Shown here one piece after another: positions 4,085-63,900 of a stretch of DNA of 64,000 nt (position 1 is its first letter; every line of letters begins with the position of its first letter). The translations under genes were made by a program, and so were the position numbers. Source of the stretch: Rhodothermales bacterium. GTDB taxonomy: Bacteria > Bacteroidota > Rhodothermia > Rhodothermales > VXPQ01. The stretch lies in NCBI GenBank assembly GCA_951812335.1, contig OX638293.1, positions 824,501 to 888,500 on the forward strand, given 5' to 3'. Under the pieces are notes generated by a model. The model saw only the letters and a list, made by a program, of their open reading frames with translations, was not told where the DNA came from and ran no database searches.

Positions 4085-4102
4085 CATCCGGACCGGATCC
4101 CC

Positions 4103-4242
4103 CTCGCAGTCTCCCGAAGGGCGCTTCACGCCCGCACTGTCGCTGATCCACAGCGTTTTCCGCTAATTCCAACGATGGAATTATGATGTCCTTTACGTGC
4201 GAACGTGAAGTGCCGGGCGAAGCGGTTTTAATCAGAGTATCC
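4103..4242. repeat. MITE-like repeat, copy a (one end, H2 module only)
   Basis: Fragment of the dispersed intergenic repeat. It begins inside the right arm of the H1 hairpin ('CTCGCAGTCTCCCGAAGG') and continues through the whole H2 module, with arms GGCGCTTCACG and CGTGAAGTGCC. It ends in a clean terminal repeat TTAATCAGAGTATCC. The other end is missing. It fills the gap between the convergent aldolase and glutamine synthetase genes, finishing 4 nt before the glnN stop, and could double as a transcription stop for both. Confidence 0.8.
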
Positions 4243-8389: not shown

Positions 8390-8448
8390 TGCTATGGAGC
8401 CGCGCACGCGAAGCTGTCTGCGTACGACATTACTCAACGGTGATCCAT

Positions 8449-9092
8449 ATGCCGCGTTATACCCTGCTACTTGCCGGTTGCCTCTTGTTGACATCCTCGG
8501 CAACGGCGCAAACAGCGCAACCCGCCCGGTTGAATGTATCCGTGCAGGGCGGGGTCATCCGAAATTTTCAGTATGAGGGTCGGGGCCTGCCTCTCTTCGC
8601 ATTCTATCGGGAAGTGCTAATTGCCAGTCGGCCTTTTCCGCTCGCCCGCGGGATTTTCTTACAGGGTGGCCCACACTTGGGGCATTGGGACGATGGAATA
8701 TATGAGAATAAGGGCTTGTATCAGGGTTGCGCTACCTATTCTCATCGCAGCCGTATTGCCGGAGCGCGCTTGTACGTGATCCCTACACAAATTTCTTTCG
8801 TTTCCCTGAGCCTGTCAGGTGGCCTATCCTGGCACTTTATCAGCGGTGACTATGCAGGCCCCCCCCATCCGAATGTGAACGTGTCTTGGTTCTCGGCACT
8901 CATTGGGGTGAAAATTATCCCGACCGCCTCAAGACACTGGAAGTCGGTCTGCGCGTAGCGGTTCCCCTCGGCAACAGGCTGGCGGTTACTACAGAGGTGC
9001 AAAAGTACGTTCATGTTCCTGTCGAAGAGCGTAATCCCCATACAAAAAACCGGTTTGTTTACAAACTGGGGCTTTCCTTTGGGTTTTTTTAA
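8449..9092 (+). pseudogene. Outer-membrane protein paralogue, copy 1 (frame broken at a C8 tract)
   Basis: First of three paralogues. ATG 8449 begins 'MPRYTLLLAGCLLLTSSATAQ', a Sec signal, with 'QTAQPARLNVSVQGG' at the mature start. The frame runs through the eight-C tract at 8859-8866 and then ends early. Adding one C restores reading into 'WGENYPDRLKTLEVGLRVAVPLG' and the conserved barrel end 'YKLGLSFGFF' (stop 9092), matching copies 2 and 3. This is either a slipped-strand off state, a recent frameshift or a sequence error. A longer frame beginning at 8272 runs through the tRNA and is not real. Function of the family is unknown; it is a predicted small outer-membrane barrel. Confidence 0.8.
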
Positions 9093-9258
9093 CTCGATCG
9101 AAAGACTGCGCCAGGAAATAACAGGGCGCTATTGCGCTCCTCTTCGAGTTCTTCCTGTGTAACGTACTTGCCCTGCTACATCAACGCGTTGCCGGGGGAG
9201 CGCCTGGCAACGATTCGCCTACCGGATTCCCGATGTTTCGCCTCCACTTCTTTTTTGG

Positions 9259-9483
9259 TTGGCGGCAAGGGAGATCCGATTTACTTTGCCGGAGGCCTCG
9301 GCGGTTTCACTCATTGTCTACGATGTGATGGGACGCGAGGTGGAACGCCTTCTCGATAAGACCCTGGGAGCCGGTTACCATGAAGCGAGGTGGGATGCGA
9401 CGGGCCTGCCCAGTGGAGTCTATCTCTATCGAATCGAGGCAGGGGCCTTTGCGCAAACCAGGCGTATGACCTTGCTCAAATAA
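9259..9483 (+). pseudogene. Orphan secretion sorting-domain remnant, copy A
   Basis: An open frame with no convincing start encodes a C-terminal domain of the type IX / FlgD-like sort: 'EIRFTLPEASAVSLIVYDV', 'GREVERLLD', 'GYHEARWDATGLPSGVYLYRI' and 'TRRMTLLK' at the end. Normally such a domain ends a much longer secreted protein of Bacteroidota, but here only the tail exists, behind a barrel-protein gene. The likely history is loss of the cargo body during formation of the tandem array. It is unlikely to be translated as a useful protein. Confidence 0.6.
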
Positions 9484-9519
9484 GCTGTCTTCGTACGACA
9501 TTACTCAACGGTGATCCAT

Positions 9520-10209
9520 ATGCCGCGTTATACCCTGCTACTTGCCGGCTGCCTCCTGTCGATCTCCTCGGCAACGGCGCAAACAGCGCAACCAGCCCGG
9601 TTGAATGTATCCGTGCAGGGTGGAGTCATCCGAAATCTTCAGAATGAGGATGAGGGCCAGCCCCTCCATGCATTCTATCCGGAGGTGCAAATTGCCAGTC
9701 GGCCTTTTTCGCTCGTCCGCGGGATTTCTTTACAGGGTGGCCTACACTGGGGGTATTGGGACGATGGAGTGCGTGAGGGTGTAATAGGGGAGAACAGATG
9801 TTTCTCTTTTCTTTCTTTTTGTTTTACTTCCCGTTCTCATCGCGGCCACATTGCCGGAGCCCGCCTTTACGTGGTCCCTACACAAATTCCTCTTGTATCC
9901 CTGAGCCTGTTCAGTGGCCTATCCTGGCACTTTGTCAGTACTGACAAAGGTGTAATTAACGTAGGAAATGGTGGATATTCAGGTATATATTCAGACATTA
10001 TTCCGCGTAGGAATTATCCCGAGCGCTTCAAAGCCTTGGAAGCCGGCCTACGCATAGCGGTTCCCCTCGGCAGCAGGGTAGCGATTACTGCAGAGACGCA
10101 AGGGTATTTTCATATTTTCATTGAGGAGCATAATCCCTACACAAACGAGCGTGATCTCCATAGAAGCCAGTTTGCCCACAAACTGGGGCTTTCCTTCGGG
10201 TTTTTTTAA
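9520..10209 (+). CDS. Small outer-membrane beta-barrel protein, copy 2
   Basis: A 229-residue intact paralogue. Residues 1-21 are a Sec signal ending in 'SSATAQ'. The mature protein starts with 'TAQPARLNVSVQGGVIRN'. Alternating hydrophobic strands and the C-terminal phenylalanine of 'YKLGLSFGFF' suggest an 8-stranded OmpA-like barrel recognised by BamA; this is inference from pattern, not a named family match. Compared with copies 1 and 3 it has its own loop insert near residues 85-105 (Phe/Ser-rich, with Cys), so the surface loops have diverged while the ends stay nearly identical. GTG 9511 is a possible alternative start; ATG 9520 gives the better signal peptide. The role is unknown. Confidence 0.75.
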   Translation: MPRYTLLLAGCLLSISSATAQTAQPARLNVSVQGGVIRNLQNEDEGQPLHAFYPEVQIASRPFSLVRGISLQGGLHWGYWDDGVREGVIGENRCFSFLSFCFTSRSHRGHIAGARLYVVPTQIPLVSLSLFSGLSWHFVSTDKGVINVGNGGYSGIYSDIIPRRNYPERFKALEAGLRIAVPLGSRVAITAETQGYFHIFIEEHNPYTNERDLHRSQFAHKLGLSFGFF

Positions 10210-10375
10210 CTCGACCGAAAGACTGCGCCAGGAAATAACAGGGCGCTATTGCGCTCCTCTTCGAGTTCTTCCCGTGTAACGTACCTGCCCTGCTACATCA
10301 ACGCGTTGCCGGGGGAGCGCCTGGCAACGATTCGCCTACCGGATTCCCGATGTTTCGCCTCCACTTCTTTTTTGG

Positions 10376-10590
10376 TTGGCGGCAAGGGAGATCCGATTTA
10401 CTTTGCCGGAGGCCTCGGCGGTTTTGCTGGTTGTCTACGATGCGAGGTGGAACGCCTTCTCGATAAGACTCTGGGAGCCGGTTACCATGAAGCGAGGTGG
10501 GATGCAACGGGCCTGCCCAGTGGAATCTATCTCTATCGGATCAAGGCAGGGGCCTTTGCGCAAACCAGGCGTATGACCTTGCTCAAATAA
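10376..10590 (+). pseudogene. Orphan sorting-domain remnant, copy B (10-bp deletion)
   Basis: Second copy of the sorting-domain remnant. Relative to copy A it lacks ten bases at about 10440 (GATGTGATGGGACGCGAGG became GATGCGAGG), which shifts the frame in the middle of the domain. The front half 'EIRFTLPEASAVLLVVYDA' and the back half 'EVERLLDKTLGAGYHEARW' are therefore in different frames. No function is expected. Confidence 0.6.
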
Positions 10591-10626
10591 GCTGTCTTCG
10601 TACGACATTACTCAACGGTGATCCAT

Positions 10627-11316
10627 ATGCCGCGTTATACCCTGCTACTTGCCGGCTGCCTCCTGTTGACATCCTCGGCAACGGCGCAAACAGCACAACC
10701 TGCCCGGTTGAATGTATCCGTGCAGGGCGGAGTCATCCGAAATTTTCAGCATGAGGATGAGGGCCAGCCGCGCAACGCATTCCATCCGGAAGTGCAAATT
10801 GCCAGCCGGCCTTTTCCGCTCGTCCGCGGGATTTCCTTACAGGGTGGCCTACATTGGGGGTATTGGGACGATGGAGTGCGTGAGCATAGGATAGAAGACT
10901 TCGGCCGCAATACCTATTCTCAAAGCAGCCACATTGCCGGAACCCGCTTCTACGTGGTCTCTACAAAAATTCCTTTCGTTTCCCTGAGCCTCTTCAGTGG
11001 CTTATCTTGGCACTTTGTCCGCAGTGACTTTGTAGGCGGTTTCAACGGCTGCTTAGACATCCCACCACCCTTATGCGATATTGCTGCCAGTGGCTATTTA
11101 ATCATCGACAGCGACTTAGACGGTTATTGGGGCAGAAAGTATCACGAGCGCTTCAGAGCCCTGGAAGTCGGTCTACGCGTAGCGGTTCCCCTCGGCAACA
11201 GGCTGGCGGTTACGACAGAAGCGAAGAAGTACATTCATCGTTCCATGGTGGAGCGTATTTCTCATACCCCAAACCGGTTTGTCTATAAACTGGGGCTTTC
11301 CTTCGGGTTTTTTTGA
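10627..11316 (+). CDS. Small outer-membrane beta-barrel protein, copy 3
   Basis: A 229-residue intact paralogue with the same signal peptide (ending 'SSATAQ') and the same barrel end 'YKLGLSFGFF'. Its middle loop (about residues 140-165, 'GGFNGCLDIPPPLCDIAASG') is unlike those of copies 1 and 2 and contains two cysteines that could form a disulphide across an extracellular loop. Divergence concentrated in predicted loops with conserved strands is what variable surface proteins show. Function is unknown. GTG 10618 is an alternative start. The sorting-domain tail found after copies 1 and 2 is missing here because the repeat unit ends at 11355. Confidence 0.75.
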   Translation: MPRYTLLLAGCLLLTSSATAQTAQPARLNVSVQGGVIRNFQHEDEGQPRNAFHPEVQIASRPFPLVRGISLQGGLHWGYWDDGVREHRIEDFGRNTYSQSSHIAGTRFYVVSTKIPFVSLSLFSGLSWHFVRSDFVGGFNGCLDIPPPLCDIAASGYLIIDSDLDGYWGRKYHERFRALEVGLRVAVPLGNRLAVTTEAKKYIHRSMVERISHTPNRFVYKLGLSFGFF

Positions 11317-11368
11317 CTCGACCGCAAGATTGCGCCAGGAAATAACAGGGCGCTACCAGAAATACGCT

Positions 11369-15982: not shown

Positions 15983-16076
15983 CGCGTTGCGTGTACCGTG
16001 TGCAAATATCAAGGATACTCCGGTCAAAACCACTGTGCTCAGCACGTCACGTCCGCAACGTACGGTCACATTCCAG

Positions 16077-16257
16077 CGTTGCAATCAGCGGGAAATACTG
16101 CGGATTCGGGGCATCGCAGACGTGAAGCGCCCTTCGGGAGGCCGCGAGGGGCACGCTGGCTGTGTCATTCCTCATTACGTGGGGCCTGCCACGTTTCTTC
16201 GTCATCCCTTGCCGGCGCACCCCTCTCAGCCTCTGAATTCCGTAGATTTAATTAGGA
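16077..16257. repeat. MITE-like repeat, copy c (degenerate)
   Basis: Order: shortened H2 module ('CGTGAAGCGCCCTTCGGGAGG'-like), then the H1 hairpin with arms around GCGAGGGGCACGCTGGC and GCCGGCGCACCCCTCTC, then a decayed terminus 'GATTTAATTAGGATA'. The inner stem is ACGTGG/CCACGT, where most copies have ATGTGG/CCACAT, a paired change. The other terminus cannot be found. Confidence 0.75.
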
Positions 16258-16332
16258 TATTATAAAGATATAATTTATATTTTATAAAAGTAAAATTTAT
16301 TTTTGCAAGAATCTAGGGCACGCCAAGTGGTT

Positions 16333-19660: not shown

Positions 19661-19850
19661 GGATAACCTGCTGATCAAGTCCACTTCGATCAGCGCTTCA
19701 CGTTCGTGCGTGAAGCGCCCTTCGGGAGGGCGAGAGGGGTTCGCTGGCCGTGTCATTTCTCATTGTGTGGGGCCTGCCGCACTGCTTCGTCATTTCTTGC
19801 CAGCGAACCCCTCTCACCCTCTGAACTTCGCGGACTTAATCAGAGTATCC
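19661..19850. mobile_element. MITE-like repeat, copy d (190 bp)
   Basis: Left end GGATAACCTGCTGATCAAGT, then a collapsed H2 hairpin (GCGCTTCACG / CGTGAAGCGC around TTCGTG), then H1 with a perfect 17-bp stem GAGAGGGGTTCGCTGGC / GCCAGCGAACCCCTCTC and an inner stem GTGTGG/CCGCAC. Right end is GGACTTAATCAGAGTATCC. H1 lies toward the sulfatase gene. No flanking direct repeat is seen (CGCC and ATAT). Confidence 0.88.
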
Positions 19851-21397: not shown

Positions 21398-21650
21398 GGA
21401 TGCTCTGATTAATTCTACTTCGATCAGCGCTTCATGTTAGTGCGCACAGGACATCATGACGATGTCGTTGAAATCAGCGAGAAATGCTGTGATTTGGTGC
21501 ATGGCGTACATGAAGCGCCCTTCGGTAGGCTTCGAGAAGCGCGCTGGCTGTGTCATTCCTCATTATGTGGGGCCTGCCACATTGCTTCGTCATTCCTTGC
21601 CAGCGCACTTCTCGAAGCCTCTGAACTTTGCAGAATTAATCAGAGTATTC
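21398..21650. mobile_element. MITE-like repeat, copy e (253 bp, 4-bp flanking repeat)
   Basis: A full-length element: left GGATGCTCTGATTAATTC, right GAATTAATCAGAGTATTC (16 of 18 bases inverted-repeat). TGTA flanks it on both sides, a candidate target-site duplication. H2 comes first, with arms CGCTTCATG and CATGAAGCG, then H1 with arms GGCTTCGAGAAGCGCGCTGGC-like and its near-perfect complement. Both termini share AATTC where other copies have AAGTC, so the two ends have changed together. Confidence 0.92.
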
Positions 21651-25770: not shown

Positions 25771-25917
25771 GGATACTCTGATTAAGTCTCCCGAAGGGCG
25801 CTCCGCGCCCGCACTGTCCGAATCCGAAGCGTTTCCCGCTAATTTCAGATGCCATTATGGTATTCCTGTACGCACGAACGTGAAGCGCTGATCGAAGCGA
25901 TTTTGATCAGAGTATCT
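25771..25917. mobile_element. MITE-like repeat, copy f (H1 deleted)
   Basis: A clean left end GGATACTCTGATTAAGTC is fused directly to the H2 module (CCCGAAGGGCGCTCCGCGCC ... CGTGAAGCGC), and the element closes with TTGATCAGAGTATC. The whole H1 hairpin is missing. It lies between the divergent desulfurase and the AAA ATPase gene. The rest of the 25607-25981 gap shows nothing else recognisable. Confidence 0.88.
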
Positions 25918-33773: not shown

Positions 33774-33841
33774 AATCAGAATATCCTTAAACTAAATCTA
33801 CGCGCTATGGCGCTAATATGGTATTCTCTGGCGTATTCTTT
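33774..33841. repeat. Remnant of a further MITE-like copy
   Basis: ATCAGAATATCC at 33775-33786 resembles the element terminus. 'CGCTAATATGGTATTCTCTG' at about 33811-33830 resembles the loop of H2 (CGCTAATTC...ATGGTATTCTTT in copy g). It directly precedes copy g, so two insertions may have occurred side by side. Confidence 0.45.
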
Positions 33842-34097
33842 AAAATACTCCGATTGAGTCCGCGAAGTTCAGAGGCTGCGAGGAGTGCGCTGGCAAGGAA
33901 TGACGAAGCAATGTGGCAGGTCCCAGATAATGAGGAATGACGCTGTCAGCGCACCCCTCGCAGCCTCCCGAAGGGCGCTCCGCGCCCGCACTGTCCCGAA
34001 TCCGCAGCGTTTCCCGCTAATTCCGACGATGCAATTATGGTATTCTTTACGCACGAACGTGAAGCGCCCGGTCGAAGCGGTTTTGATCGGAGTATCC
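33842..34097. mobile_element. MITE-like repeat, copy g (256 bp)
   Basis: A full-length element in the opposite orientation to copies d and e: left end AAATACTCCGATTGAGTCC, then H1, then H2, then right end TTTTGATCGGAGTATCC. H1 arms at 33873-33895 and 33944-33966 pair at 21 of 23 positions. The loop carries GGAATGACG twice, either side of the inner stem. H2 arms are GGGCGCTCCGCG and CGTGAAGCGCCC. It is between the divergent yebC and sigma-factor genes; about 175 nt of unassigned sequence then precedes the sigma gene. Confidence 0.9.
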
Positions 34098-34916: not shown

Positions 34917-35170
34917 GGATACCCCGATTAAGTCCGCGAAGTTCAGAGGCTGAAAGGGGTGCGCTGGCAAGGAATGACGAAGCAATGTGGCAGGCCCCGC
35001 ATAATGAGGAATGACGCAGCCAGCGTGCTCCTCTCTGCCTCTCGAAGGGCGCTTCACGCCTGCGATGCCCCGAATCCGCGGTGTTTCCCGCTAATTTCAA
35101 CGATGCAATTATAATATCTTTTAAGCACGAGCGTGAAGCACTGATCAAAGTGGACTTAATCAGCGTATCC
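34917..35170. mobile_element. MITE-like repeat, copy h (254 bp, ends 1 nt before purB)
   Basis: A full-length element: left GGATACCCCGATTAAGTCC, right GGACTTAATCAGCGTATCC (17 of 19 inverted). Order H1 then H2. H1 stem is imperfect (AGGCTGAAAGGGGTGCGCTGG with CCAGCGTGCTCCTCTCTGCCT-like arm, five mismatches); the inner stem is ATGTGG/CCGCAT. H2 arms are GCGCTTCACG and CGTGAAGC. The element stops at 35170 and the purB ATG is 35172-35174. Confidence 0.92.
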
Positions 35171-35171
35171 C

Positions 35172-36491
35172 ATGATACCCCGATACACCCGCCCCGAAAT
35201 GGGGGAAATATGGAGCGAACAGAGCCGATTCCAGTCCTGGCTCGATGTCGAGTTGGCCGCATGTGACGCATGGTCGAAACTGGGCGTCATACCTTCGGAG
35301 GATGTTGCTATGCTCTACGCCCGGGCCTCGTTCGATGTGGAACGTATTCATGAGATCGAGAAGACGACGCGGCATGATGTGGTGGCTTTTACGCGCGCAG
35401 TAAGCGAATCGCTGGGGCCGGAGAAAAAATGGGTGCATTATGGCCTTACTTCCTCCGATGTGGTCGATACGGCGCTGATGGTCCAGCTCAAAGAGGCGAA
35501 CGATCTTCTGCTGGCCGCCATCGACCGGATGCTGGACGTGCTGGCGGACAAGGCGCGCGAGCATCGATATACCCTAATGATGGGTCGCACGCATGGGGTC
35601 CACGCCGAGCCGACGACATGGGGCCTGAAAATGGCGTTGTATCATGCCGAGACGATGCGAAACCGCCGCCGGTTCATGGCTGCGGCCGAGGATATGGCCG
35701 TGGGGAAATTGTCGGGGGCCGTAGGCACATTTGCACACATTCCCCCCGAGATCGAACAGATGGTGTGCGAGAGGCTGGGTTTACGGCCCGCGACCGTCTC
35801 GACGCAAGTCCTGCAACGGGACCGGCATGCACACTATTTGTCGGTCCTTTCGCTCATCGGCGCTTCGCTCGAAAAGATGGCGGTGGAGGTGCGGGGGCTT
35901 CAAAAAAACGAAGTCCGGGAAGTCGAGGAAGCCTTTGGAAAGGGGCAAAAAGGATCTTCCGCCATGCCGCACAAACGGAATCCGGTGGGTTCGGAAAATA
36001 TCACAGGCTGCGCCCGGCTCCTTCGCGGCTACATGGTGTCGGCCTACGAAAATGTGGCGCTCTGGCACGAGCGCGACATTTCTCATTCGTCCGTGGAACG
36101 GGTCATTATTCCCGATGCGACGACGATTCTTCACTATGCGTTGCACCGGTTTGCCGGCATCATGGACACGCTGGTCGTATATCCCGAGGCGATGCGGGCA
36201 AATATGGAACGGACCTATGGACTGTATCATAGTCAGCGGCTCATGCTTATGTTGATCGACAAGGGAATGCCCCGAGAGGCGGCCTACGATCTGGTTCAAC
36301 CGGCGGCGATGCGGGCATGGGAAGAACAACGCCCGTTCAGGGAGGTTGTCGCCGGGGACATCGCGCTCATGGAGCATTTGTCCCCGGGGGAGGTGGAGGT
36401 GGCCTTCGATCTATCGTACCATATTCGCCGGATCGACTTTATTTTCGAGCGAGCCGGTTTGGCCGTCGATGCCCCGCCGGCGCATGATTGA
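35172..36491 (+). CDS. purB: Adenylosuccinate lyase
   Basis: Catalyses two purine steps: SAICAR to AICAR plus fumarate, and adenylosuccinate to AMP plus fumarate. 439 residues. The N-terminus '[20 protein letters not shown]' is the canonical family start, which fixes ATG 35172. '[12 protein letters not shown]' (~88), the catalytic histidine region '[16 protein letters not shown]' (~140) and the signature '[17 protein letters not shown]' (~258-275) are all intact. Because the repeat ends one base before the start codon, the entire 5' untranslated region, and perhaps the promoter, come from repeat copy h. Confidence 0.97.
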
Positions 36492-36649: not shown

Positions 36650-39466
36650 ATGAACGCCATGCTGCGCCATCTGCTCGCTACGTCCCTGTTTTGTTTTCTC
36701 GCATTCGTTGCGTCCGTGCCCCGATCGGTGCAGGCGCAAGCCAGCGTATCGGTTAGCGGCGTCGTTACGGACGCTTCGTCGGCATCTCCTCTGCAAGACG
36801 CCAATGTGGTGTTGCTGGTCGATGGCATCATGATTGCAGGCGCCGCCTCGGGCGCCGACGGATCGTACGAAATTTCCGGGGTTCCTCCGGGCGATTACGT
36901 GCTTGCGGTGCGTTTTGTGGGATACGAGGAGGAACAGATGCAGATATCGTTGCAGCCCGGGGAATCTATCACAGCAGATGCAGCCTTGCGCCCGACAGGT
37001 TTCGATCTCAATGCAGTGGTCGTGAGCGCATCGCGCGCCTCCGAGAAAGTGCTGGATGCCCCGGCCTCGATTTCCGTCCTGGATGCAAGGGAAATCGAGA
37101 CTGTTGCCCTGCCGTCCTCCGCCATGTTGCTTCGGAATGTAACCGGGGTGGATATGGCGCAGACGGGCGTTAACCGGTATGAGATCGTGCTGCGAGGGTT
37201 CAATAACGTCTTCTCAGGAGCCACGTATGTCATGACGGATTACCGGCGGGCGGCCTTGGCGTCCCTGGGCCTGAACGATTATAGCCTGATGCCGATCAGC
37301 CAGATCGACCTGGAGCGCGTCGAAGTGGTAAGAGGTCCGGGATCGGCGCTCTTCGGCGGCGGGGTCGATGCAGGAGTGATCCACTTCATCAGCAAGGATC
37401 CGTTTACCCATCCGGGTACAACGGTGCGCTTGGGGGGAGGCCTTCGCAATGCATTGACGGCCTCTCTGCGTCATGCGGGCGTTGCGGGCGGTAAGTTGGG
37501 ATACAAGTTCGTCGCCGATTTTCAGCGCGCCAACGACTTTGCTTTCGATCCGGAGGATCCTGCAGATGCTGTGCAACTCGCCACGTTCAGAGAGGAGGCG
37601 CTGCCCGTAGATTACAATAACCATAACTATACGATGTCGGGCCAGCTTTCCTGGCGGCTTCGCCCGGATGTCACGCTGACGGCCAATGGCGGATATTCGG
37701 CGGTCAAGACCATCGGACTTTCGGCTATCGGTACGATTCAGGGCGACGGATTCGGGTATACGTACGGGCAGCTTCGTCTCGATGCCGGAGGGTTTTTTGC
37801 CCAGGCCTATGCGAATTTCAACGAGGCGGGCGATTCCTTTGTCTATCGATCGGGATCGGTCGAGGACGTTGTGGACAAGTCGACCCTGTTCAATGTGCAA
37901 GGGCAGTACGACTTCGATATTCTGGACGATCGCTTCCGTTTTATCCTCGGCGCGGAATACGAACATACCAATCCCGTTACGAAGTACACGATCTTTGGCC
38001 GTAACGAAGATCATGACCGATTCGCCGAGACAGGCGCTTATCTCCAGAGTGTCGTTCGACTGAGCCCGACATTGAATGCGACGCTTGCCGTGCGCGCGGA
38101 CAGGCACGGTTTGTTTGACGGGGTGCAAATTTCTCCCCGGGCCGCCCTCGTTTTCAAGCCCGATCCCGCACACAGCATTCGCGCCACATTCAACCGGGCA
38201 TTCGCTTCGCCAACCACGCATACCCTTTTTCTGGATATCAATGCGGGAGCAGCCGGGCCGCTTACGATCCAGGCCCGAGGGGCGCTGGACGGATTTAATT
38301 TCCAGCGCGATGAACAGGGCGGCCTGATCGCTTCCAGTATGATTCCGGATATTTTCGGGGCGCCCGTTCCCGTAGGCGTCCCGCTCGATTTGCTCTACGG
38401 TCAGATATACGGATTGCTTTCGAGCATTCCGGCGTCTCAGTTGCAAACGTTGCTTGCGGCACAAGGTTTAAACCTTCCGGCGCCTGTCATTTCCCAGTTT
38501 ATCGGTTTGCTCAGTCCGGACGGGGGTATCGCCGTAACGGGCCTGACGCCGACCAGTATCGGATATGTGGATCTGAACACATTGATTGTGGATCCGAACA
38601 GTATAACCCAGGATGTGGTGGATGTCCCTCCCCTGAAATACACGAACAGCGAGATATTCGAAGTAGGGTACAAGGGGCTGCTCGGGGAACGGCTGCTGGT
38701 TGCCGTGGATGGGTATTACGCCCGGCGGCGGAATTTCGTCAGCCCGTTGCGGGTGGAGACGCCCTTCGTGCTGGTGCCGGAACACGATTTGTTGTTCAGC
38801 GATCTGGAAGCGGCGATCGCTGCCGGCATTGCGGGCAATGAGACCCTGAATGCGGCCCTGCAGGCGGTGGGATTCTCGGCAGACGACATATCGGCGCTCA
38901 TCGTAGAGCTTGCCAGGCCGGACTTTGCAGCGTTTCTTCCGGAGAATTCGCCGATCGGTATCGTGCAGCCTGAGGAAAACATGACGCCCGGCCAGCTTCT
39001 GATGACGTATCGGAGCATGGGGGAGATCGAATACTATGGTGTGGATGTGTCCACCGAACTGCTGCTCGGCGATCAGCTGCGCGTTTTCGGAAATCTGTCC
39101 TGGGTCAGCGACACCTTTTTTGACGCCAGTGAGCTTGGCGAAGAGGAAGAGACGCTGGAACTGGCCATGAACTCCCCTGCTGCGAAGGTCAAGGGCGGAT
39201 TTGCCTACGAATCTTCCGGCAACTGGAGCATCCATGCATCCGTGCGGCATACCGGGGGTTTCGAGGTGCGATCGGGTTTGTACACAGGGCCCGTGGGAAA
39301 GCATACGCTGCTGGATGTCGGCGCCGGGTACGATCTCGGTAATTATTTGCCCGGATTGCGCATGAATCTGTCCATGTTCAATGTGCTGGATCAACAACAC
39401 CGCGAGTTCGTCGGCTCGCCGGCGATAGGCCGAATGGGGCTTCTGCAGATGACCCTGGATATATAG
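36650..39466 (+). CDS. TonB-dependent receptor with carboxypeptidase-like N-terminal domain
   Basis: A complete 938-residue outer-membrane receptor. The Sec signal ends around 'RSVQAQ' (residue ~28). A CarboxypepD_reg-like domain spans ~33-120 ('SGVVTDASSASPLQDANVVL', 'PPGDYVLAVRFVGYEEEQ'). The plug starts with 'VVVSASRASEKVLDAPASIS' and includes 'VEVVRGPGSALFGGGVDAGV', and the barrel runs to 'GRMGLLQMTLDI'. Several loops between ~515 and ~690 are long and mostly alpha/coil. The substrate is unknown: no SusD-like lipoprotein follows, so a glycan role is less likely than metal or cofactor uptake. Its TAG stop shares its last base with the terminus of repeat copy i. Confidence 0.94.
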   Translation: MNAMLRHLLATSLFCFLAFVASVPRSVQAQASVSVSGVVTDASSASPLQDANVVLLVDGIMIAGAASGADGSYEISGVPPGDYVLAVRFVGYEEEQMQISLQPGESITADAALRPTGFDLNAVVVSASRASEKVLDAPASISVLDAREIETVALPSSAMLLRNVTGVDMAQTGVNRYEIVLRGFNNVFSGATYVMTDYRRAALASLGLNDYSLMPISQIDLERVEVVRGPGSALFGGGVDAGVIHFISKDPFTHPGTTVRLGGGLRNALTASLRHAGVAGGKLGYKFVADFQRANDFAFDPEDPADAVQLATFREEALPVDYNNHNYTMSGQLSWRLRPDVTLTANGGYSAVKTIGLSAIGTIQGDGFGYTYGQLRLDAGGFFAQAYANFNEAGDSFVYRSGSVEDVVDKSTLFNVQGQYDFDILDDRFRFILGAEYEHTNPVTKYTIFGRNEDHDRFAETGAYLQSVVRLSPTLNATLAVRADRHGLFDGVQISPRAALVFKPDPAHSIRATFNRAFASPTTHTLFLDINAGAAGPLTIQARGALDGFNFQRDEQGGLIASSMIPDIFGAPVPVGVPLDLLYGQIYGLLSSIPASQLQTLLAAQGLNLPAPVISQFIGLLSPDGGIAVTGLTPTSIGYVDLNTLIVDPNSITQDVVDVPPLKYTNSEIFEVGYKGLLGERLLVAVDGYYARRRNFVSPLRVETPFVLVPEHDLLFSDLEAAIAAGIAGNETLNAALQAVGFSADDISALIVELARPDFAAFLPENSPIGIVQPEENMTPGQLLMTYRSMGEIEYYGVDVSTELLLGDQLRVFGNLSWVSDTFFDASELGEEEETLELAMNSPAAKVKGGFAYESSGNWSIHASVRHTGGFEVRSGLYTGPVGKHTLLDVGAGYDLGNYLPGLRMNLSMFNVLDQQHREFVGSPAIGRMGLLQMTLDI

Positions 39467-39565
39467 GATACTCTGAATTATGTGGGACCTGCCACATTGC
39501 TTCGTCATTCCTTGCCAGCGCACTCCTCGCAGCCTCTGAACTTCGCGGACTTAATCAGAGTATCC
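39466..39565. mobile_element. MITE-like repeat, copy i (100 bp)
   Basis: A deletion derivative. The left terminus GGATACTCTGA joins directly to the inner H1 stem (ATGTGG GACCTG CCACAT), then the right H1 arm and the right terminus GGACTTAATCAGAGTATCC. The left H1 arm and all of H2 are missing. Its first G is also the last base of the receptor stop codon. The remaining gap to nuoA (39566-39804) has no recognised feature and presumably holds the nuo promoter. Confidence 0.88.
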
Positions 39566-50573: not shown

Positions 50574-50642
50574 TCGGCGAACTACGATCCCGTTGAAGTC
50601 GTCTGCCGGAACCCTGTCGATCCGTGCGGGTATCTTCGTCAA

Positions 50643-50740
50643 GGGCAAGTTCCGCACGGTCTGCTCCCTGTGAATCCTGTCAGGGCCGGAAGGCAGCAGC
50701 AGTAACCAGGTTGAAGCGACGCGATACGGGTAGCTTGCCC
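50643..50740 (+). ncRNA. ffs: Signal recognition particle 4.5S RNA
   Basis: Small bacterial SRP RNA that binds Ffh in co-translational targeting. The diagnostic core is present: CCTGTCAGGGCCGGAAGGCA followed by GCAGCAGTAACCAGGTTGAA, i.e. the GGAA tetraloop and asymmetric loop of domain IV. The ends pair as GGGCAAG (50643) with CTTGCCC (50734-50740). A CTCTTTTTTAA tract follows immediately and serves as terminator. It lies between priA and yajC, both on the same strand. Confidence 0.95.
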
Positions 50741-50752
50741 CTCTTTTTTAAC
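50741..50752 (+). terminator. T-tract terminator of SRP RNA
   Basis: A run of six T residues directly follows the closing stem of the SRP RNA, so the RNA's own terminal helix probably acts as the terminator hairpin. Confidence 0.6.
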
Positions 50753-55682: not shown

Positions 55683-55745
55683 GGATACTCTGATTAAGTC
55701 CGCGAAGTTCAGAGGTTGCGAGGGGTGGTTTTGATCGGCGTATCC
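55683..55745. mobile_element. MITE-like repeat, copy j (63 bp)
   Basis: The shortest derivative. Left GGATACTCTGATTAAGTCC plus the beginning of H1 (CGCGAAGTTCAGAGG) joins straight to the right end GGTTTTGATCGGCGTATCC. Both hairpins are deleted while both termini remain. It lies between the divergent HIT and PTPS genes, with no other feature in the gap. Confidence 0.85.
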
Positions 55746-60644: not shown

Positions 60645-61955
60645 TTATCGACTGCGGGAACGACCCGAAGAGGATGAAGACCCGCCCGAAGACCGCCCGC
60701 TGCTGCCCGACGAAGATCGGGGCGGCGGGGACGAACGGACGGTGCGTCCGCTGGACCCGCTGCTGCGCGAGGAAGGCGCTGAACGGACGGTACGGCCACT
60801 CGATCCACTGCTGCTGCTCGAGGAGGGCTTCGAACGGACGGTACGGCCACTCGATCCACTGCTGCTGCTCGAGGAGGGCTTCGAACGGACGGTACCCCCG
60901 CTGGACCCACTGCTGCGCGAAGATCCGGATGAGCGCACAGTCCCCCGGTTGCCGGAAGACGACGAAGACCGGGACGAGGGAGACGAACCGACAGTGCGGC
61001 CACTCGATCCACTGCTTCCGCGCGAGGAGGGGGTCGAACCGACAGTGCGGCCACTCGATCCGCTACTGCCGCGCGAGGAGGGGGTCGAACCGACGGTTCG
61101 CCCGCTGGACCCGCTGCTGCGTGCGGTGGTTGTCCGGCGCGTATCGCGAACCGTATCGGTTGACCTGCCCGTTCTCGAGCGACTACCCTGCACGGCGGTC
61201 GATCTTCCGGAACGCGTCGAGCGCTCTCCGGAAACGGTCGAGGCGCCGCGCGTCTTTCCAACGGAAGCGTTCCCTGTGTTGCCTATCTCGCGGATTCCGC
61301 CTCCCCCGAAATCGTCTGCATATCCGTCACGGGATCTCCTGCCCCAACCCATGCTGGCGCCGCGCGGGCCCCATTGCGTGTCTCTCGAGCGAATCGTTCC
61401 GGGGTAATCATACCGCCACCCGCCGTAATAGGGATTCCAGGTGTGCGCATAGCCCGGATAATAGCCATAGGAGCGGTAGCGGAAGGGGCTGTAATAATAG
61501 GGAGACCCGCCCCATCCCCAGCCCGGACCGAGGGAAATGCCCGCGTAAAAGCTGCTGTATCCGTACCCATAGGGACTGTACCCATGCCCATAGGGGCTAT
61601 ACCCCCAGGAATTGTATCCCCAGGGATCGTACCACGAAGGCCCGTAGAACGAACTATAGGACCAGTGCGGGTCCCGGTAGTACCGCGGACTCCATCCGTA
61701 ATCGAACCGGTCGAAGTAGCGGCGATAGCCATAGGGACCGCTGTAGAAATACTGGTCATTGTAGTAGCGTTCCGTTACGACGGTGTCCTCGGAGCTTTGC
61801 ACTACCTCCACGTAATCGGGAATCCGCTCGTACTGTACGGTGCTCAACTGGGTGTAACAACCGGCCAGCAGGATCACAAGCAGTCCGGCGGCGAATGGCG
61901 CCGCGCGCAAGGCGGGACGATGGGTTCCCCGCTTGTGTAATGTCGATCGTTCCAT
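60645..61955 (-). CDS. Repetitive lipoprotein: Tyr/Gly-rich head, Ser/Arg repeat tail
   Basis: A 436-residue protein of no named family. The lipobox 'LLVILLAGC' gives lipidated Cys33. Residues ~60-185 are extremely rich in Tyr, Gly, Pro and Ser ('YSPYGHGYSPYGYGYSSFY'), like adhesive or matrix proteins. Residues ~280-414 are about eight tandem 17-residue repeats of the form SSGSSGRTV-x-S-x-PSS, strongly basic and disordered. The two halves suggest an exposed, surface-attached polymer-like protein. Low complexity makes homology unreliable. ATG 61955 is the start, and the 61956-62258 gap to proS holds no other gene I can see. Confidence 0.75.
   Translation of the reverse strand: MERSTLHKRGTHRPALRAAPFAAGLLVILLAGCYTQLSTVQYERIPDYVEVVQSSEDTVVTERYYNDQYFYSGPYGYRRYFDRFDYGWSPRYYRDPHWSYSSFYGPSWYDPWGYNSWGYSPYGHGYSPYGYGYSSFYAGISLGPGWGWGGSPYYYSPFRYRSYGYYPGYAHTWNPYYGGWRYDYPGTIRSRDTQWGPRGASMGWGRRSRDGYADDFGGGGIREIGNTGNASVGKTRGASTVSGERSTRSGRSTAVQGSRSRTGRSTDTVRDTRRTTTARSSGSSGRTVGSTPSSRGSSGSSGRTVGSTPSSRGSSGSSGRTVGSSPSSRSSSSSGNRGTVRSSGSSRSSGSSGGTVRSKPSSSSSSGSSGRTVRSKPSSSSSSGSSGRTVRSAPSSRSSGSSGRTVRSSPPPRSSSGSSGRSSGGSSSSSGRSRSR
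60714..61118. repeat. In-frame 51-bp minisatellite
   Basis: About eight head-to-tail copies of a 51-bp unit (17 codons) encode the Ser/Arg-rich tail of the lipoprotein. Neighbouring units are nearly identical at the DNA level, for example the two copies of CGAACGGACGGTACGGCCAC at about 60830 and 60780, which points to recent expansion or homogenisation. Confidence 0.85.
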
Positions 61956-63735: not shown

Positions 63736-63900
63736 GGATACTCTGATCAAGACCACTTCGATCAGCGCTTCACTTTCACGCGTAAGGAACGACATGCTTG
63801 CATCGTTGAAATCAGCGCAAAACACGGCGGATTCGGGTCGTCGCGGTCGTGAAGCGTCCCTGTCTGCCTCTGAATCTTTGCGGACTTAATCAGAGCATCC
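63736..63900. mobile_element. MITE-like repeat, copy k (165 bp, 4-bp flanking repeat)
   Basis: Left end GGATACTCTGATCAAGACC, right end GGACTTAATCAGAGCATCC, flanked by TAAC on both sides. The H2 module is present (GCGCTTCAC ... GTGAAGCGTC); the H1 hairpin is deleted, leaving only CTGCCTCTGAATCTTTGCGG before the terminus. The flanking TAAC on the left includes the proS stop codon. The last 100 bases of the window after it show nothing recognisable. Confidence 0.88.

Follow-up and report, generated by a model that had tools for sequence, protein, structure and literature searches.

The dispersed 255-bp element at 33843-34097 is a MITE, a non-autonomous transposable element of IS5 type, and tree-based statistics on its copies show that its body is constrained to fold. 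Our best reading, to which we assign a probability of roughly two in three, is that this IS5-type MITE has been selected for a fold of its plus strand. The copies alter their sequence yet keep a single-strand fold, which suggests that a folded RNA or single-stranded DNA (ssDNA) matters to the element itself.

The window, the 64,000-nucleotide stretch analysed here, covers positions 824501-888500 of a genome assembled as one contig of 2,686,407 bases (G000). BLAST searches and alignment of the copies delimited the unit as 33843-34097, with terminal inverted repeats (TIRs) and, inside them, hairpin H1 followed by hairpin H2; the interval 33873-33966 reported in the first-pass annotation comprises H1 only. 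The copies and their parts in the window are as follows.

33843-34097, + strand: full-length MITE, copy g, which holds the finding; ends AAATACTC...GAGTATCC (BLAST and alignment)
33843-33863, + strand: left TIR, consensus GGATACTCTGATTAAGTCCGC (alignment and end-motif counts)
34077-34097, + strand: right TIR, consensus GCGGTTTTGATCAGAGTATCC (alignment)
33869-33966, + strand: H1 hairpin, with an outer stem of ~22 bp, an internal loop with two GGAATGACG copies and a 6-bp inner stem (111.5 bits)
33895-33943, + strand: conserved internal loop and inner stem, AAGGAATGACGAAGC - inner stem - AATGAGGAATGACG
33970-34070, + strand: H2 hairpin, of which the outer stem GGGCGCTYC../..GAAGCGCC covaries and the interior does not (tree-based double-change test)
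34917-35170, + strand: second full-length copy, which stops 1 bp short of the ATG of the ORF at 35172
21398-21650, − strand: full-length copy e
16013-16262, − strand: full-length copy c, with a decayed left end and approximate bounds
19665-19850, − strand: copy d, a deletion derivative with H1 present and the H2 interior lost; right bound approximate
39466-39565, − strand: 100-bp deletion derivative that keeps both ends but only half of H1
25771-25917, + strand: 147-bp deletion derivative with the ends and H2, without H1
63736-63900, − strand: 165-bp derivative with both ends
4100-4242, + strand: 3′ fragment with H2 and the right end
55683-55727, + strand: 5′ fragment with the left TIR

Deletion derivatives retain both ends, and the junction in copy d is that of an amplified, H2-less subfamily of ~186 bp in G003, where at least four copies are present. 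At four other loci of G000 (L009, L011, L015 and L042), the 3′ third of the element (~174-255) is present again in tandem, directly after the right end.

The element occurs in dozens to hundreds of copies in these uncultured Rhodothermales bacteria, and 149 distinct full-length copies were gathered from six species of one Rhodothermales genus. A query of 33800-34040 returned 42 matches in G000. A DNA search of 60 relatives detected the element in each of the five remaining species of the genus, and the 54 genomes from other families had no match. None of the 108 genomes of the order outside the genus has a copy; a covariance model of H1, run on 114 genomes of the order, matched only the six genus members. 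Both ends carry a TIR of ~19 bp (GGATACTCTGATTAAGTC and the corresponding right end), and the end motif GGATACTCTGATTAAG occurs 356 times genome-wide at ≤2 mismatches, compared with 0 for the reversed control. Because 150 of 152 distinct H1 cores adjoin the left TIR of the transposable element, H1 was rejected as a free-standing RNA gene. Rfam searches at gathering and relaxed thresholds yielded nothing credible (best score 22 bits, where the gathering score is 80), viral contigs contained no match to the core pattern, and no promoter for the element was identified. Many draft contigs of G001 and G002 stop ~15-20 bases outside an H1 match, and the repeat therefore seems to break these MAG assemblies.

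Insertion sites document the mobility of the element. Among 79 flank-deduplicated copies, 25 are bounded by an exact 4-bp target-site duplication, compared with 5.9 expected by shuffling. In a larger set, 43 of 144 copies show an exact duplication, most often TTAA (20), TATA (7) or TTTA (5), and some duplications are non-palindromic (TTAG, TTCA, TCAA and GTAA). The site of the copy at 34917-35170 is clean and empty in all five other species, GAAC[C/A] directly adjoining the start codon region, and at the syntenic site of 33843-34097 the element is absent from G003 and G004 and reduced in G005. In G001, G002 and G004, copies only 0.4-0.8% apart occupy different sites, which points to recent movement in these genomes; the copies in G000 are older, with a median nearest-neighbour divergence of 8.7%. 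The element is non-coding and carries no transposase gene of its own. According to a simple codon-usage gene finder, all 53 full copies with callable neighbours in G000 are intergenic (18 between divergent and 5 between convergent gene pairs), and their ends often abut start or stop codons, often within 40 bp. Two copies in G000 (L033 and L014) lie at the centre of a host palindrome, such as GCGGCGTTTAA / TTAAACGCCGC flanking L033, which gives the appearance that palindromes or terminators are targets. Around the element, positions −1 to −5 show more complementarity than chance would give, a signal that the palindromic TTAA and TATA duplications partly explain.

The transposase that moved the MITE seems to have been of IS5 type, working in trans by cut and paste, as judged from sequence relics and shared ends. 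The PF01609 profile detected transposase fragments at three loci in G004, and at all three the right end ATTGATCAGAGTATCC lies 196-206 bp downstream of the transposase match. One of these genomic loci in G004, L144, has both ends, GGATACTCTGATTTAATCC...GGATTGATCAGAGTATCC, enclosing an internally deleted transposase gene. The G004 fragments belong to the IS5 family according to NCBIfam NF033581 (2e-40), with bit scores slightly below the cut-off, as these are partial proteins. G000 retains a 29-residue transposase relic with a decayed right end, and G066, from another genus of the order, contains IS5-type transposases whose ends, GGATAGTCTGATTAAGTC, agree with the MITE end at 17 of 18 bases. 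No intact transposase or autonomous copy with these ends was found in the six genomes of the genus. Other candidates were rejected: IS1380 (PF13701) and IS701-type (PF13546) transposases are absent from the genus; PF01797, the profile for a Y1/RAYT mover, was found in 0 of 6 genomes, with a positive control in 5; an inverted pair of TIRs 1.8 kb apart (L130) has ordinary transporter genes and no transposase between its members; and a separate IS5-family insertion sequence of ~860 bp at G000:636280 (L137) has ends, GGGCGTGTTAACAC, unrelated to those of the MITE.

In the fold of the consensus and of single copies, the TIRs close a stem that bears two hairpins, and folding exceeds that of shuffled sequence, with z of −6.9 for H1 and −5.4 for the whole element. 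H1 is complete at five places in the window (16139-16236 −, 19727-19824 −, 21527-21624 −, 33869-33966 + and 34943-35040 +), and these hairpins fold as the first-pass annotation had described, with stems that vary yet stay complementary. The outer stems that it had paired in copies d, e and g do pair over 22 positions, with 21 Watson–Crick pairs plus one G-U in d, 21 plus one in e and 20 plus one in g, and the variant inner stem of copy c, ACGTGG/CCACGT, is fully paired. The inner stem reported for copy d has a single imperfect pair (C.A on the strand of the element, G.T on the strand that had been read), and copy g lacks the common ATGTGG/CCACAT and reads ATGTGG/CCAGAT, with one mismatch.

Co-substitution was assessed on 144 distinct full copies from the six species by parsimony on a tree. 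Branches on which both members of a pair changed were counted and compared with a null that kept the number of changes per column and the weight of each branch (500 runs). On this single tree, which cannot model recombination between copies, the inner stem of H1 had 21 double changes against 3.9 expected (null maximum 10), the outer stem of H1 23 against 10.7 (null maximum 20) and outer H2 11 against 4.0 (null maximum 10). The TIR had 13 against 4.9, which is still inside the null range (maximum 14), and the H2 interior was without covariation support, with 20 against 20.9 expected and, in an earlier run on 94 copies that agrees with the larger one, 8 against 12. All 44 double changes in H1 went from one Watson–Crick pair to another. 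When 41 diverse H1s were aligned separately, each of five measures was higher than in all 500 shuffles, and the signal fell in every control with slid partners (60 double-changed cells compared with 4-19). The earlier proposal of selection for a folded structure is supported by these counts above the tree-based null in H1 and outer H2, a signal that slid partners do not give. A stricter column-pair test (APC-corrected G test with simulated null columns) was less generous than the co-substitution count. Only two pairs, 70/85 and 137/221, were individually significant; these are the two top scores of ~31,000 column pairs, and no pair outside the structure was significant.

The direction of the double changes bears on how the stems came to vary. 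The H1 arms are near-identical inverted repeats, and inversion of arm segments between copies could in principle produce paired variation. Such inversion predicts block swaps of GC to CG, whereas the double changes observed are mostly single-position transitions (GC to AT; 57 of the 71 in the core helices). Because of these transitions, arm inversion is not the explanation for the stem variation; it is already contradicted and retains a negligible probability.

Single changes from Watson–Crick pairs were used to ask which strand is constrained, over the TIR, P2 (columns 25-29 with 226-230) and H1. In a DNA palindrome, a changed pair that is G.T on one strand is A.C on the other, and G-U and A-C counts are therefore expected to be equal unless selection is strand-specific. 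On the plus strand, 178 single changes gave G-U and 92 gave A-C (p 2e-7), compared with 108:108 in the H2 interior, which served as a control. Unpaired and interior columns have a mutation spectrum that predicts 0.99:1, and the departure from it has p 1e-7. The bias is moderate in size and is not seen in outer H2 (23:34). The plus-strand H1 is also steadier than its complement in 133 of 146 copies (132 of 146 with DNA parameters). The excess of G-U over A-C on one strand makes it probable that selection acts on a single strand, as RNA or ssDNA. Of the first-pass choice between a DNA cruciform and RNA, a symmetric cruciform is accordingly disfavoured.

The same counts bear on an origin of the paired changes by mutation in place of selection. 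Template switching or arm-to-arm conversion in a quasi-palindrome at replication would change both sides together, and H1 is a long, near-perfect palindrome. Some pairs differ by transversions without a visible wobble step, for example TIR 4/251 (TA to GC), and one branch carries five double changes, as conversion would allow. However, such a process is strand-blind and would leave no excess of G-U over A-C; the predominance of transitions is what passage through G-U steps would give, intermediates (G-U, A-G and G-A) are present among the copies, and the conserved internal loop of H1 would be left unexplained. We consider this mutational origin rather unlikely.

If selection on the plus strand is the better account, the molecule selected could be ssDNA, as in a lagging-strand or peel-and-paste type of intermediate, and not RNA. 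In ssDNA, G.T is also better tolerated than A.C, the greater stability of the plus strand holds with DNA parameters, and REPINs offer a precedent (PMC3116915). Against this, none of the six genomes has a Y1 (IS200/RAYT-type) transposase, copy orientation shows no bias relative to the replication strand (35 vs 41), and the presence of TIRs and target duplications suggests a DDE enzyme. A selected ssDNA form is possible but on balance improbable.

Selection might alternatively act on each copy where it resides. Resident copies could function within host transcripts as a terminator, a stabiliser or an RNase III site, the kind of RNA element that NEMIS and ERIC have been proposed to be, a role that would suit their intergenic positions close to start and stop codons and the conservation of the loop core on terminal branches of G000 (27 changes compared with ~71 expected). 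However, co-directional gene pairs hold 12 sense and 18 antisense copies and thus no sense preference, and copies antisense to neighbouring genes show the same strand bias (G-U:A-C 28:14) as sense copies (25:17). When terminal branches are divided by age, G-U:A-C is 10:9 in the youngest third, a small class, 45:13 in the middle third and 81:56 in the oldest. Because the youngest copies lack the bias, selection appears to act mainly on the lineage that is still transposing; we lean towards selection on this spreading lineage followed by decay of resident copies, which is not a proof. Mismatches are common in old copies. Function in place is thus doubtful, and we regard it as quite improbable. 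Several loci are near-identical over element and flanks in G000 and G004, and few pairs are informative for an orthologous-copy test of in-place selection. Pairs such as L010 (G000) and L213 (G004) are 97-100% identical including flanks, compared with ~89% for genes near the window, which suggests recent gene flow between the two species.

The internal loop of H1, AAGGAATGACGAAGC / AATGAGGAATGACG, is nearly invariant in the 144 copies and is the most sequence-conserved part of the element; on terminal branches of G000, by comparison, the outer H1 stem changes as fast as the H2 interior. The two direct copies of GGAATGACG that had been noticed in it are real and share this near-invariance. Sequence therefore matters at the loop, where the first-pass view of selection for structure 'rather than for sequence' does not hold. 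A structured RNA or a bound ssDNA hairpin typically looks like this, with unpaired bases conserved between stems that covary. Most simply, the conserved symmetric loop would be a protein-binding module of a plus-strand RNA.

In the preferred reading, an IS5-type MITE selected for its plus-strand fold, an IS5-type transposase would act in trans on the MITE ends by cut and paste, and the two TIRs would close a stem that carries H1 and H2 on one strand. The selected molecule would be plus-strand RNA or, less probably, plus-strand ssDNA, selection would act mainly on the lineage that keeps transposing, and the H1 loop would bind a putative protein on that RNA. A bolder proposal, which we hold only tentatively and think unlikely, is that the IS5-type element needs a strand-specific folded RNA (or ssDNA) of its own encoding in order to spread. 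The TIRs would then have two roles, as transposase ends and as the stem that closes a structured RNA whose conserved internal loop binds protein. If true, the element would combine cut-and-paste transposition with an RNA cofactor.

Folding of MITE transcripts is usually argued from energy predictions. Such transcripts are generally described as folding (PMC10969869; PMC2229807), and the present element can be compared with several known systems. Like IS5-family MITEs and insertion sequences (NF033581), it has a short non-coding body and a 4-bp AT-rich target duplication, and its TIR matches IS5 transposase loci both within the genus and in a second genus of the order; unlike them, its body is a two-hairpin structure with strand-specific covariation and not a deleted insertion sequence. 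REPINs are likewise non-autonomous, intergenic and hairpin-forming, with compensatory changes reported on both hairpin sides (PMC3116915), but the present element is much longer, has TIRs and a target duplication and lacks REP tag-and-stem units, and the genomes that carry it have no Y1/RAYT transposase. A REP tag is GTAG or CGTC at the foot of a short palindrome, with a stem of 8-9 bp for CGTC (PMC3733652); CGTCATTCC occurs twice on the minus strand here, but as direct repeats in the internal loop and with no palindrome. Caulobacter CIR repeats share a two-armed RNA fold joined by a linker (reviewed in PMC2229807), although they are ~110 bp long with a GANTC loop motif, compared with ~255 bp and TIRs closing both arms. 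Correia/NEMIS elements are TIR MITEs with folding transcripts, for which an effect on adjacent mRNAs has been proposed (reviewed in PMC2229807); they differ in size, ends and interior, and the present element shows no sense-orientation bias. In the sections of the source at hand, QMITE1 and QMITE2 of Coxiella burnetii are MITEs with a long stable fold, some copies being reported as small RNAs, and their folds are predicted and not derived from covariation (PMC5896051); we found no relation to them.

Compared with the open-access literature searched, what seems different is the phylogenetic and strand-specific evidence, together with a two-hairpin body that has an invariant loop and IS5-type ends; an earlier description outside that literature is possible. 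With 144 copies from six species, the fold could be tested on a tree and a one-strand fold separated from a DNA palindrome by the G-U/A-C comparison, a strand test that is reusable on other repeat families. If our reading is right, it raises the question of why a DNA transposon needs one strand folded, and what binds the invariant loop.

Three further features of the window were recorded. Three tandem direct repeats of ~1.1 kb at 8411-11355, 77-96% alike and with similar ORFs of ~230 aa, are probably a gene triplication, and repeats with a 51-nt period at 60715-61172, within a long ORF, likely belong to a repeat protein. At 50636-50744 (+), this Rhodothermales genome contains a match to the Bacteroidales small SRP RNA family.
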